In this document: positions 46,534 through 53,990 of the stretch, piece after piece | Layout of the letters: each line of letters opens with the position of its first letter | Numbering within the stretch: the first letter of the stretch is position 1 | NCBI RefSeq assembly: GCF_020991365.1 | Contig: NZ_JAJLRA010000027.1 | Span: 1 to 64,000, forward strand | Direction of reading: 5' to 3' | DNA from: Streptacidiphilus sp. ASG 303 | Lineage (GTDB): Bacteria; Actinomycetota; Actinomycetes; Streptomycetales; Streptomycetaceae | Length of the DNA: 64,000 nucleotides | The notes under the pieces: generated by a model | Seen by the model: the letters and a program-made list of their open reading frames with translations, nothing else | Databases searched by the model: none | What the model was told of the DNA's origin: nothing | Made by a program: the position numbers and the translations under genes

Positions 46534-47613
46534 ATGGCGCCCAACCGCAACGAGATCGTGGAGATCCTCTGCGACATCTGGTCCGACCTGCTCGCCTGCG
46601 ACGTCGAGCCGGACGACGACTTCTTCGACCTGGGCGGCTACTCCCTGCTCGTGGTCAACGTGGTCGCCGAGGCGCGCAAGCGCGGGCTCGAGCTGCCGGC
46701 GACGATCCTCCAGGTCAACGGCACCCCGGCGGCGATCGCCGACGCGCTGGTCGCCGCGGCGGACGGCGGGCCCGCCCCGCAGGGCGCGGACCCGGACTTC
46801 ACCTCCGTCTGGGAGACCGGCCTGAGCCCGCTGGAGACCGAGCCCGCACGCACCCTGGTCCCGTTCGTGACGGAGGGCACCGGCACGCCGGTCTTCTGCT
46901 TCCACTGGGGCACCGGCAACGTCCGCTTCATGGGCGACCTGGTCGACTCCTTCCGGGGCGGCCGTCCCGCCTACGGGCTCGAGATGGTCGGCATGTGGAG
47001 CCGCGAGCGCCCGTCCCTGTCCATCGTCGAGATGGCCGCGCGCTACCTGCGCGAGATCCGCGAGGTCCAGCCGCACGGCCCGTACCTCTTCGTCGGCCCC
47101 TGCGCCGGCGGCCGCATCGCGTTCGAGATCGCCCGGCAGCTGGAGCAGGACGGCGAGACCGTGGCCGTCCTCGCGGTGGTCAACAGCATGCCGCCCGGCA
47201 GCACGGAGATGGACCCGGCCTGGGGCCTGCGCGAGCTCTACGACTTCCGGCTCGCCGCGCTGCGCAGCCGGTTCGAGGTCGCCGACCTGGTCGGCGACCA
47301 GCAGCGGGTGATGGACGGGATGGCCGACATCGCCTGGCTGGACCGCGGCGTGGACGGCGCCGACCTGCACTGGCGGCAGGCCGTCTGGGCGGCGGGGATC
47401 TTCGCCCAGGAGCACTACGAGCCGCGCCCCTACGGCGGTGAGCTGACGGTGTTCCAGCTGGCGGAGAACGCCGGGCTGGAGTCGGCCGACTGGGGCCGCG
47501 TCGCCGGTGCCACGGAGACGCACACCTTCGAGGCCGCCGGCACGCTGCCGCTGCTGCGCGACCCCGCCTTCGCCGAGGTGCTGGCCAAGAAGCTGGCCGC
47601 GTTCCCCGGCTGA
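46534..47613 (+). CDS. peptidyl carrier-thioesterase didomain with Cys nucleophile
   Basis: A 359-residue T-TE protein. Residues 5-75 form the carrier domain, with the phosphopantetheine serine in DDFFDLGGYSLLV near residue 36. Residues 110-355 form a type-I thioesterase (VFCFHWGTGNVRFM, LFVGPCAGGRIAFEIARQLE). The nucleophile elbow is G-P-C-A-G-G, Cys instead of the usual Ser. Cys thioesterases are known where strained or hard-to-form rings are released. It should receive the final aminoacyl or peptidyl chain and release it. Confidence 0.88.
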   Translation: MAPNRNEIVEILCDIWSDLLACDVEPDDDFFDLGGYSLLVVNVVAEARKRGLELPATILQVNGTPAAIADALVAAADGGPAPQGADPDFTSVWETGLSPLETEPARTLVPFVTEGTGTPVFCFHWGTGNVRFMGDLVDSFRGGRPAYGLEMVGMWSRERPSLSIVEMAARYLREIREVQPHGPYLFVGPCAGGRIAFEIARQLEQDGETVAVLAVVNSMPPGSTEMDPAWGLRELYDFRLAALRSRFEVADLVGDQQRVMDGMADIAWLDRGVDGADLHWRQAVWAAGIFAQEHYEPRPYGGELTVFQLAENAGLESADWGRVAGATETHTFEAAGTLPLLRDPAFAEVLAKKLAAFPG

Positions 47614-47624
47614 GACGCCCGGCC

Positions 47625-47672
47625 GGGACGCCGGGCCCGCTCCCCCGGCGGGCGGGCCGGGCCCGGCGTCCC
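47625..47672 (+). terminator. 15-bp perfect hairpin between T-TE and exporter genes
   Basis: GGGACGCCGGGCCCG (47625-47639) pairs exactly with CGGGCCCGGCGTCCC (47658-47672) around an 18-base loop. It follows the T-TE stop and precedes the MFS gene in the same direction, so it may cut or tune read-through inside the cluster. Confidence 0.55.
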
Positions 47673-47739
47673 GCTCCCCCGGTCCGACCCGCGGACCCGA
47701 CCCACACCCCACGCGGACACTCCACGAGGTGCACAGACT

Positions 47740-52100: not shown

Positions 52101-52307
52101 AGGCCGGCCGACCTCGACCTGCCCGGCTGCCGCAGTGTCCACCACCGCCTGCCCTACCTCGGGATCCCCGCGGAGATCCTGGCCGAGGTCTGGCCGGTGC
52201 CGGACGGCGGCCTGCGCCTCGTCCTCAACTCCAGGACCCGGGCGGTCGCCCCGGAGACCGCCCGGGCGCTCGCCAAGACCTTCGCCGACCTGCTGTCCAC
52301 CTGCTGA
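49128..52307 (+). CDS. nonribosomal peptide synthetase, A-T-C module
   Basis: A 1059-residue NRPS. Adenylation domain at about 20-540: FFTSGTTGRPKGV near 168, the A4-type WDGYSLELW near 207, NCYGPVEST near 305, YRTGDLAFWDEEG and ANGKL. Carrier domain at about 560-625 with FAELGGGSLDAGR. C-terminal condensation domain at about 645-1055 with intact HHIAFDGWS near 771. My reading of the ten specificity residues is D-G-L-W-M-G-C-V-F-K, closest to valine-type codes, but this was aligned by eye. The order A-T-C implies it supplies the donor amino acid and condenses it onto the next carrier. Confidence 0.88.
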   Translation: MQPHPSWNATSAPYPDGETLHGIFGALAAARPAAPCLVHRGEPLGYGLVDRASDAYAVQLAALGIGRGDLVPIRLPRGPELVTAVLAVLKLGAAYALVDGGWPRSRVEEVVAQLEAKVLVGGGDEAASGLSVPVWSPPPGGPAAVAEAGTAGFTPVAVSGDDPACVFFTSGTTGRPKGVLTPHRATVRLFRPGSFARFAADTVLPQAAPVPWDGYSLELWSVLLNGGTSLVVEEPYLSAEVLRSGVERHGVDTVWLTSSLFAMLVDEDPGCLRGLRQVMIGGERVSVPHVRAFLAAYPDTLLLNCYGPVESTVFTTTHRITAADCERPTGIPIGRPVPDTQVHVLDGDRPCGVGETGELCIGGHGLALRYLGRPELTAEKFTEVSVDGVPTRLYRTGDLAFWDEEGLLHYRGRADRQVKVRGHRIEPAEVERQIEELLPGVGRCAVVAVRDASGTCRSLAAFCRTVRPGDGLDGGLAELRSRLVHYHLPSHLVPVAEFPLTANGKLDEAALLALLPGPADAPGDGTAGDGAGDTGSTGSTADTAGAAGPDALEALVAGTWAAVLGRPGVPLDAGFAELGGGSLDAGRVCARLAAGLERPVPVSALLQRPTVRGLAAWLRHTAEGAPATAPAAAGGDGPLRTPDPTPLTPAQTGFLTAHLLDPEDRSGHCLAAWLVEGPLDRAALDSALEDVHHRHAALSAAYRLGRGGPHSVPGAGAAPRVTVLPSAATAEDALAAVRTGLAAPLDLAEGEVWRAVLGPVADGTHVFGHVVHHIAFDGWSEAVLAADIATAYTARLAGGEPEWDPLPSPGEVHALREAHRGLADRPAQLARLSALLRGVPDLALPPVPRAAAGAAPVLRTEVELDGGVGARIDRLAASAGATRFAVVLASYARALAETTGRADFGVGVPVAQRIDSRLEGLVGCHIGTLCLRTTPELVGADPAAAAAEAARLARQAFAHQEVGVDELARAVNPPRSGRAPFFQTLLAYQDNRPADLDLPGCRSVHHRLPYLGIPAEILAEVWPVPDGGLRLVLNSRTRAVAPETARALAKTFADLLSTC

Positions 52308-52346
52308 CCGGTCGCCGCCGCGACGCCTCCGCCCCCCCGACAGACT

Positions 52347-53990
52347 GTGAGAGCCACCATGCAGCCCACCGTCCCCGTCCTGCTCCGCCGCCACCTGCTC
52401 GAAGCCGGGACCCTGGCCGACCTGTTCCGCCGCGTCGCCGCCGTCCGCGGGGACGCCCCGGCCGTCCGCGACGACGGGGCCACCATGAGCTACCGCGAAC
52501 TGGACGCCGCCTCGGACCGGCTGGCGGCCCGCCTGTCCGCAGCGGGGGTGGGGCCGGGCGACCTCGTCGGGCTGCTGCTGGAGCGGTCGGCGGAGATCCC
52601 GGTCGGCATCCTCGGCGTGATGAAGGCCGGAGCCGCGTACGTGCCGCTCGACCCCGCCTACCCCGGCGAGCGCCTGCGGTACATGGTCTCCGACGCGGGG
52701 ATCCGCACCCTGGTGGGCCGCCCGGAGCAGGCTGCGGAGCGCGGACTCGCCGAGGTGCGGGTGCTCGCCCCGTACGCCGACGGGGCGGACGCCGCGACGG
52801 ACGCCGCCGCGACTGCCGAGGCCGCTGAGGCCGGCGCGCGGCCGCCGGCACGTCCGCTCCGCGGCGACGAACCCGCCTATGTCATCTACACGTCCGGTTC
52901 GACCGGCAGCCCCAAGGGCTGCGTCGTCACCCACCGGAACGTCCTGGAGCTGCTCCGCCACGCGCTGCCGCTGTTCGAGGTCGGCACCGAGGACCGCTTC
53001 ACGCTGTTCCACTCGTTCAGCTTCGACGTCTCGGTGTGGGAGTTCTGGGCCTCCATGGCCTCCGGCGCCACGGCCGTCACCGTGCCGCTGCGCGTCGCCC
53101 AGAGCCCGGCCGCCTTCCTCGAGCTGCTCGCGGAGGAGCGCGTCACCGTCCTCGGGCAGGTCCCGTCGGTCTTCCGGGCGCTGGCGCTGGCACACGAGGA
53201 GGCGGGCCGCCCCGGACTCGCCCTGCGCTACCTCGTCTTCGCGGGCGAGAGCGTGGACCTCGACGTGGTGTCGACGTTCCTGAAGGCGTACCCGGGCACC
53301 GCGCCCACCGCCGTCAACATGTACGGCCCGACCGAGACCACCGTCTACGCCACCCACCGGATCCTGACCGGGGCCGACTTCGACGGCGCGGTCCGCTCCC
53401 CGATCGGCGCGGGCCTGCCGCACCTGACCCTGGAGGTCCGCGGGGAGGGGCTGGAGCCGCTCCCCGACGGGGAGGCGGGCGAGCTCCTGATCGCCGGGCC
53501 AGGCGTCGCGGTGGGCTACCTCGGACGCCCCGGGCTCACCGCCGAACGCTTCGTCACCCTGGACGGCCCCGGCGGGCAGCACCGCTACTACCGCACCGGC
53601 GATCTCGCCCGGCGGCTTCCGGACGGGTCCTTCGAGTACCTGGGCCGCAACGACCAGCAGGTCAAGCTGCGCGGCTTCAGGATCGAGCTGGGCGAGGTGG
53701 AGGCGGCGCTGCGCACGCACGACCTCGTCAAGGACGCCGCGGTGACCGTGGTGACCACCCCTGCGGGCGCGCAGTTCCTCGTCGCCTGCGTGGTGCCGGC
53801 CCACGGCGCCCCGGCCAAGCCCGCCGCGCTGCTCCGCGGGCACGCGGTGAACGTGCTGCCGCGCTACATGGTCCCGGACCGCTACCAGGTGGTCGACGAG
53901 CTCCCGCTCACCGGCTCCGGCAAGCTCGACCGGCGCGCGCTCCAGGCACTGGCCGCCCCGAGCCGCCCTGCCCGCCCGGCCGCCGGCTGA
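52347..53990 (+). CDS. stand-alone NRPS adenylation domain
   Basis: A 547-residue A domain without fused carrier. Motifs: YTSGSTGSPKG near 181, the A4 block FSFDVSVWEFW, MYGPTETTVYATH, YRTGDLARRLPDGSFEYLGR, RNDQQVKLRGFRIELGEVE and LTGSGKLDRR. The by-eye specificity code is D-V-W-G-V-A-M-V-Y-K, not matching a common residue. It should load the carrier of the T-TE protein in trans. The GTG at 52347 repeats the start context of the MFS gene; ATG 52359 is an alternative start. It is the last gene before a strong hairpin. Confidence 0.88.
   Translation: MRATMQPTVPVLLRRHLLEAGTLADLFRRVAAVRGDAPAVRDDGATMSYRELDAASDRLAARLSAAGVGPGDLVGLLLERSAEIPVGILGVMKAGAAYVPLDPAYPGERLRYMVSDAGIRTLVGRPEQAAERGLAEVRVLAPYADGADAATDAAATAEAAEAGARPPARPLRGDEPAYVIYTSGSTGSPKGCVVTHRNVLELLRHALPLFEVGTEDRFTLFHSFSFDVSVWEFWASMASGATAVTVPLRVAQSPAAFLELLAEERVTVLGQVPSVFRALALAHEEAGRPGLALRYLVFAGESVDLDVVSTFLKAYPGTAPTAVNMYGPTETTVYATHRILTGADFDGAVRSPIGAGLPHLTLEVRGEGLEPLPDGEAGELLIAGPGVAVGYLGRPGLTAERFVTLDGPGGQHRYYRTGDLARRLPDGSFEYLGRNDQQVKLRGFRIELGEVEAALRTHDLVKDAAVTVVTTPAGAQFLVACVVPAHGAPAKPAALLRGHAVNVLPRYMVPDRYQVVDELPLTGSGKLDRRALQALAAPSRPARPAAG

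Follow-up and report, generated by a model that had tools for sequence, protein, structure and literature searches.

A conserved actinobacterial gene cassette as a candidate pathway for a self-protected hadacidin-like antimetabolite and a dipeptide

Hadacidin competes with aspartate on adenylosuccinate synthetase (PurA), with a Ki of 0.19 uM for the Helicobacter pylori enzyme and of 1.0-4.2 uM for that of Escherichia coli (PMC6136348), and PMC12616698 refers to a fungal gene cluster that contains a PurA homologue. Among the open-licence papers listed for the word hadacidin, none describes its genes in the title or the opening of the abstract. Other related systems are the flavin enzyme FzmM, which acts on a free amino acid, aspartate, bound by Arg13, Arg276, Arg416, Arg577 and Asn413 (PMC10404684), the second set of Pur enzymes that makes formycin in Streptomyces kaniharaensis (PMC8724604), and the thioesterases (TEs) of ObiF and SulM, which close strained rings and combine a Cys nucleophile with a moved Asp, the latter being a trait of type II TEs as well (PMC11298585). 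Here, we describe a gene row within a 64,000-nucleotide stretch of Streptacidiphilus sp. ASG 303 (contig NZ_JAJLRA010000027.1, positions 1 to 64,000; hereafter, the window), in which a nonribosomal peptide synthetase (NRPS) line for two residues stands beside a FzmM-like flavin enzyme, a formyltransferase, a predicted exporter, and extra copies of PurA (PurA2) and malic enzyme. The best explanation, which we put forward tentatively, as plausible rather than probable, is a self-protected cluster made of two enzymatic halves, one for a hadacidin-like antimetabolite and one for a dipeptide, with PurA2 as the self-resistance enzyme.

Pfam domains and the reading of open reading frames (ORFs) place eight co-directional genes, separated by gaps of 39-126 bases, between 41315 and 53990, in the order malic enzyme, PurA2, flavin (FAD) enzyme, formyltransferase (FT), thiolation-thioesterase protein (T-TE), major facilitator superfamily (MFS) protein, adenylation-thiolation-condensation protein (A-T-C) and free-standing adenylation domain (A2). 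Together with the divergent gene upstream, they are:

39598-40854, minus strand: XRE helix-turn-helix and tetratricopeptide repeat (TPR) protein, putative cluster regulator, divergent (PF13560/PF01381)
41315-42514, plus strand: malic enzyme, extra cluster-borne copy (PF00390/PF03949)
42574-43860, plus strand: PurA2, extra adenylosuccinate synthetase, putative self-resistance or pathway enzyme (PF00709)
43967-45517, plus strand: flavin monooxygenase, FzmM-like predicted amino-acid N-hydroxylase (PF13454, structure model, profile search)
45558-46475, plus strand: formyltransferase (PF00551)
46534-47613, plus strand: T2-TE protein, nucleophile Cys190 (GPCAGG), Asn217 at the usual Asp position
47740-49059, plus strand: predicted MFS exporter (PF07690)
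49128-52307, plus strand: NRPS A1-T1-C1 (A core about 49209-50240, T about 50793-50981, C about 51060-52097)
52347-53990, plus strand: free-standing A2, an A domain with its C-terminal subdomain

A sequence-only reading of 46534-53990 had proposed a bare dipeptide NRPS unit. The NRPS parts that it named are real, but the region 41315-46475, which it did not report, holds the most informative genes, and a minimal dipeptide NRPS falls short as the full account, since the N-hydroxylase, the formyltransferase, the exporter, and the extra PurA and malic enzyme also belong to the set.

This membership is defined by conservation. A formyltransferase search of 199 relatives matched three genomes, the source genome included, and eight more loci were taken from named genome contigs. 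The row PurA2-FAD-FT-T-TE-MFS-A-T-C-A2 is kept gene for gene in seven of seven cassettes, PurA2 and the MFS gene included, from seven genomes of Streptomycetaceae and Actinoplanes (the window; L011/L012 of genome G086; L018, Streptomyces sp. NBC_00620; L019, S. fulvoviolaceus; L020, Streptomyces sp. SID12501; L021, Actinoplanes sp. KI2; L055 of genome G454), and an arrangement present in seven genomes is not due to chance; L018 and L055 are 97-100% identical and therefore count together as little more than one cassette. The malic enzyme lies beside six of the seven cassettes, the Actinoplanes one (L021) being the exception, whereas an XRE/TPR homologue accompanies five (window, L012, L018, L019, L055) and was not found at L020 and L021. 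The formyltransferase family is rare, as at E 1e-30 it occurs in one of the 396 genomes of a phylum sample, namely the source genome itself. Moreover, the six cluster malic enzymes form a single clade (support 100/100; 0/500 shuffles as low) apart from 12 other copies of eight genomes, indicating that this enzyme travels with the cluster and is not part of the chromosomal background.

N-hydroxylation and formylation are the usual route to formyl-hydroxyornithine siderophores, and the row could be taken for a siderophore-like or ordinary peptide cluster that has PurA and malic enzyme as chance neighbours. This is very improbable: PurA2 (7/7 cassettes) and malic enzyme (6/7) each form a clade of their own, the flavin enzyme is FzmM-like and not of the Lys/Orn PF13434 type, and none of the genes conserved across the seven loci is for siderophore transport.

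The flavin enzyme gave nothing useful in a single-sequence PDB search. Its AlphaFold model (pLDDT 80) has FzmM (8cp2/8cp5) as best match at E 2.7e-23, with the next fold at 5e-14, and superposes on FzmM with a VIA-align Z of 27 over 484 residues, against 311-315 residues at Z 24 for the next rows and a maximum of 384 aligned residues among the rows shown. Similarly, a profile built from nine flavin-enzyme sequences finds FzmM at E 4e-14, with the next chain at 0.065, and the alignment of hidden Markov models to six FzmM homologues reaches E 6e-24 over 491 columns. By relationship, in sequence and in model, the enzyme is a predicted amino-acid N-hydroxylase. The set of residues by which FzmM binds aspartate is mostly lost: Arg13 and Arg577 are replaced in 9/9 sequences (by Thr in the cassettes, by Ser and Thr in the loci L022-L025 described below), the Arg409/412/Asn413 stretch is not kept, and Arg276 and Arg416 are partly kept, while the equivalent of Asn62 is retained. 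Because of this loss, the enzyme is not filed as an Asp hydroxylase, and aspartate, the substrate suggested by FzmM, was lowered as a candidate and is probably not the one used; the same loss, together with the link to PurA, leads us to guess at glycine. Hydroxylation of a 2,3-diaminopropionate (Dap), ornithine or lysine side chain, as in an alanosine-like or siderophore-like pathway, was rejected, as the conserved set holds no Dap genes and the enzyme lacks the PF13434 signature. Two distant homologues of the flavin enzyme (G911, G100; L082, L083), about 29% identical, occur in other clusters without a formyltransferase and were set aside.

In the adjacent formyltransferase, Asn146, His148 and Asp184, the Asn-His-Asp catalytic triad of this family, are invariant in 9/9 sequences, and the model (pLDDT 84) matches the folds of methionyl-tRNA formyltransferase and ArnA. 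Judged from these relationships, the two enzymes in succession should yield an N-formyl-N-hydroxy amino acid. The pair also exists on its own, in an FAD-FT-MFS operon without NRPS genes (L022-L025, at about 8400-12200) in S. roseoverticillatus, S. klenkii, Streptomyces sp. RPT161 and S. natalensis, one of these loci, L024, being the same record as G014. All four loci have FAD, FT and MFS, in that order, and no other gene in common; conservation does not extend into their flanks, and their FAD and FT proteins are about 40% identical to those of the cassette. The MFS proteins of the two groups have no clear relationship, their best match reaching E 4e-5 across 79 residues, and they may therefore export different products.

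The second half of the row is the NRPS line. Pfam recognises T (PF00550, 8e-11) and TE (PF00975, 3e-20) in 46534-47613, A (4e-64), T (2e-9) and C (7e-35) in the A-T-C protein, and A (6e-89) with its C-terminal subdomain in 52347-53990; the A, T, C and TE domains all have intact catalytic motifs, including the C motif HHIAFDG, both carrier serines and both A10 lysines, as a two-residue line needs. The A-T-C ORF is listed from 47820, and its first 436 or so residues overlie the MFS gene (47740-49059) in a different frame; the true start is likely the ATG at 49128, which follows a purine-rich stretch. This domain content supports the sequence-only reading in its claim of parts for two residues, with one C domain, one TE and an A2 that must load T2 in trans. 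Further NRPS modules, which would have spoken against it, do not appear: within the compared regions of about 20 kb around each of the seven cassettes, the cassettes share no NRPS gene beyond those of the set, and for this reason a two-residue line is supported. In the source genome, C domains occur on four other contigs, none adjoining the cassette. A two-residue product is thus the best reading, and iteration by the TE is compatible with the same parts. The sequence-only reading knew of no cluster with this gene set and order, and the searches made of the open-licence literature gave no close match to a characterised one.

Specificity codes were read on an alignment of all A domains, with the PheA positions placed by motif. 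They are DGLWMGCVFK for A1 and DVWGVAMVYK for A2, identical to the earlier readings by eye. Four of the five A1-type domains read DGLWMGGVFK, the window having Cys in place of the second Gly, and the type, which is Val-like by established codes, looks branched-aliphatic in agreement with the first assignment. The A2 code, invariant in 7/7 cassettes, is not known to match any established one, as had been noted; the domain resembles solved A domains of the 2-aminobutyrate (Abu)/Thr group (CytC1, 5n9w) as well as ObiF1, with which its Thr-group pocket has W239, G278 and M322 in common. Asp235 is kept in both A domains. In two cassettes (L018 and L055), the A domain of the A-T-C protein is itself of the A2 type, being 74% identical to the window A2 and 34-35% to the window A1 and reading DVWGVAMVYK; both residues should be identical there. 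This is a natural A-domain exchange within an otherwise conserved cassette (L018:13480-16590, L055:5650-8760). A second A-T-C protein of the source genome (contig C115, L017:5776-10005), with an A domain 48% identical to A1 and the code DGYFMGVVIK, has glycosyltransferase, sugar epimerase, ABM monooxygenase, short-chain dehydrogenase/reductase (SDR) and FAD_binding_3 genes as neighbours.

The two halves could be linked directly, if FAD and FT modified the NRPS chain, at the dipeptide N-terminus or at a side-chain amine of residue 2, to give an N-formyl-N-hydroxy dipeptide that would chelate the metal of a target enzyme. Linear gramicidin offers a precedent with its formylated NRPS N-terminus, all the genes lie in one row, and Asp235 in both A domains means free-amine substrates. 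Conversely, when residue 1 switches from the A1 to the A2 type in L018 and L055, the similarity of FAD and FT to the others is unchanged, indicating that the pair does not follow residue 1; in 4/4 other loci it occurs without any NRPS gene and can thus act on a free amino acid, as its relative FzmM does (PMC10404684). Chain modification is accordingly unlikely.

The TE of the T-TE protein has a Cys nucleophile in 7/7 cassettes and, when aligned to EntF and AB3403, Asn at the common Asp position after strand 6, again in 7/7. A single TE is present, to which the earlier proposal assigned release; being of the Cys type, it need not release by simple hydrolysis, and ring closure is possible on sequence grounds. 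In a further alternative, the TE closes a beta-lactone or beta-lactam on residue 2, as ObiF and SulM do, and this ring is the warhead, while FAD, FT and PurA2 serve a second activity. The Cys with moved Asp reported for those two TEs (PMC11298585) and the A2 pocket residues in common with ObiF1 agree with it. Against this, ObiF1 and SulM are absent from the 45 solved-sequence matches of the T-TE profile at E 1e-5, among which AB3403, a Cys TE of unknown product, is the best; type II TEs also move the Asp (PMC11298585), and the acid after strand 7 was not located in the cassette TE. A strained-ring warhead is, on these grounds, quite unlikely.

PurA2 scores 483 bits with PF00709, against 614 for the housekeeping copy, and is 71-87% identical among cassettes, 51% identical to the third PurA of its own genome and 41-42% identical to housekeeping copies. 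At E 1e-125, its subfamily is present in only 7 of 394 family genomes, three with the cassette (G000, G086, G454) and five with a formycin-type PurA, G000 having both. In the alignment, to which 17 of the 18 fetched PurA loci contributed rows (G205 was left out), PurA2 keeps Asp13, His41, Arg303, Arg305 (E. coli numbering) and the TKLD motif, and the cluster thus carries a second PurA with its catalytic residues kept, as expected of a target duplicate. Position 300, in the Asp-side loop, is Asn in 6/6 distinct cassette copies and Thr in 10/10 housekeeping copies and in the one formycin-type copy, a change that is suggestive, and only that, of insensitivity to the product. Self-resistance fits PurA2 because hadacidin, which is N-formyl-N-hydroxyglycine and the simplest amino acid so modified, is a classical PurA inhibitor.

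Several observations weigh against the explanation that we favour, most of them against a resistance role of PurA2. Its nearest relatives outside the cassette are formycin-type PurA proteins (G251, G279, G289, G068, C127), which are 51-54% identical and have the QLGAL(R/K)D change in common with it; the four loci inspected (C127 of the source genome, G251, G279, G068) belong to a single conserved cluster type, with genes for a Lys N-hydroxylase, cupin-MetRS, an aminotransferase, and PurH-like and luciferase-like proteins, and a biosynthetic PurA in such clusters is the strongest point against PurA2 as a resistance gene. Moreover, the IMP-side changes Q224L, L228R and R143K are found in the PurA of both cluster types, and a plain resistance copy would not need them. 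No PurA lies in any of the four FAD-FT-MFS loci, and a single PurA is present in at least two of the genomes concerned. Lastly, with Asp235 retained in both, the A domains would not be expected to accept hadacidin or another substrate whose nitrogen is blocked. PurA2 might instead be biosynthetic and, like the formycin PurA, couple an amine that resembles Asp to a substrate that is IMP-like or an amide, the cluster then making a peptide that is nucleotide-derived or bears an amidine. The formycin-type relatives and the IMP-side residues, which differ from those of housekeeping PurA, favour this alternative, which is possible, though rather unlikely: across the seven loci, the cassette is not accompanied by any conserved purB, purC, purH or nucleoside-tailoring gene, the formycin PurA adjoins PurH and hydrazine genes whereas neither the window row nor the conserved set has PurH-like, hydrazine-forming or C-nucleoside genes, and the Thr300Asn change is confined to the cassette.

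In the self-protected two-half cluster that we favour, the first half, observed by homology, would work on a small free amino acid, the FzmM-like enzyme hydroxylating its amine and the formyltransferase formylating it to a hadacidin-type N-formyl-N-hydroxy amino acid. In the second half, observed by its domains, A1 would load T1 with a branched aliphatic amino acid, and A2, acting in trans, would charge T2 of the T-TE protein with an unusual one that suits the Thr/Abu group of A domains; C would join the residues, and the Cys-type TE would release or cyclise the two-residue chain. The MFS protein is predicted to export the product, and PurA2 would maintain purine synthesis if that product mimics aspartate and so targets adenylosuccinate synthetase. 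The halves might be joined with the peptide as carrier of the warhead, by modification of the dipeptide N-terminus, or as two co-made compounds; Asp235 is kept in both A domains, and a hydroxylated, formylated nitrogen could only start a chain. The malic enzyme, which acts on a C4 diacid, may be a second spared target, as hadacidin has the backbone of both aspartate and malate. A fuller version, which is speculative and doubtful, has a bacterial hadacidin-type warhead that is made by the FzmM-like enzyme and the formyltransferase and mimics aspartate and malate, delivered as or with a two-residue peptide released by the Cys TE, PurA and malic enzyme as resistance copies, and the swap of the first A domain as the means by which the carrier residue is altered between strains.

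Beyond the cassette, the source genome has a formycin-type cluster on contig C127 (L044, 16000-35999), with Lys N-hydroxylase, cupin-MetRS and aminotransferase III genes together with PurA, PurH-like and two luciferase-like genes, and two PurA genes of this strain hence lie within clusters. A divergent PurA from G205 (184 bits) lies elsewhere in its genome, with no cassette gene seen nearby, and was not used. In the window, a minus-strand ORF at 41518-44046 (842 aa) that covers malic enzyme and PurA2 was discarded as a high-GC artefact; it outscored the real genes in gene calling by third-position GC content (GC3), and PurA2 was recovered through the Actinoplanes locus and a PF00709 search. 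This frame can conceal PurA2 from simple gene callers. The genes at 54945-58345 (CoA-transferase III, carnitine-dehydrogenase-like, SMP-30-like) were rejected as cluster members, having no match in any cassette locus, and an Rfam scan of 36-60 kb with a tRNA scan gave no matches.

If the two-half explanation is right, the cassette would provide candidate bacterial genes for hadacidin-type chemistry, in the form of an FzmM-fold N-hydroxylase and a formyltransferase that also occur as a bare three-gene operon; the cluster PurA would be a new resistance-gene handle for finding inhibitors of adenylosuccinate synthetase, and the exchanged A domain a small natural case of such a swap in a two-residue NRPS. 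These claims can be tested with two soluble enzymes and one commercial inhibitor.

Compared with the described systems, the cassette recalls hadacidin and its target in that its second PurA shares a row with an N-hydroxylase for amines and an N-formyltransferase, but hadacidin is known as a fungal product (PMC6136348) for which an NRPS is not expected, and the cassette is known here from its genes. With FzmM and CreE, of the fosfazinomycin and cremeomycin pathways, it has in common the fold over 484 residues, the profile homology and the Asn62 equivalent, whereas most of the Asp-binding residues are missing from its enzyme and a nitrosuccinate lyase from its row. Formycin-type clusters (the for cluster of S. 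kaniharaensis and that on C127) likewise bear a divergent PurA of the same subfamily; unlike the cassette, they contain genes for a Lys N-hydroxylase, cupin-MetRS, PurH and luciferase-like proteins but lack an NRPS, and their PurA is biosynthetic. The TEs of ObiF1 (obafluorin) and SulM (sulfazecin) resemble the cassette TE in the Cys nucleophile and in having no Asp at the common position, but the latter is not close to them in sequence and is part of a separate T-TE protein served by an A domain in trans. Bacilysin and alazopeptin are dipeptide antimetabolites that contain a warhead residue; their chemistry and enzymes differ from those of the cassette, and the logic of two residues combined with self-resistance would fit both.

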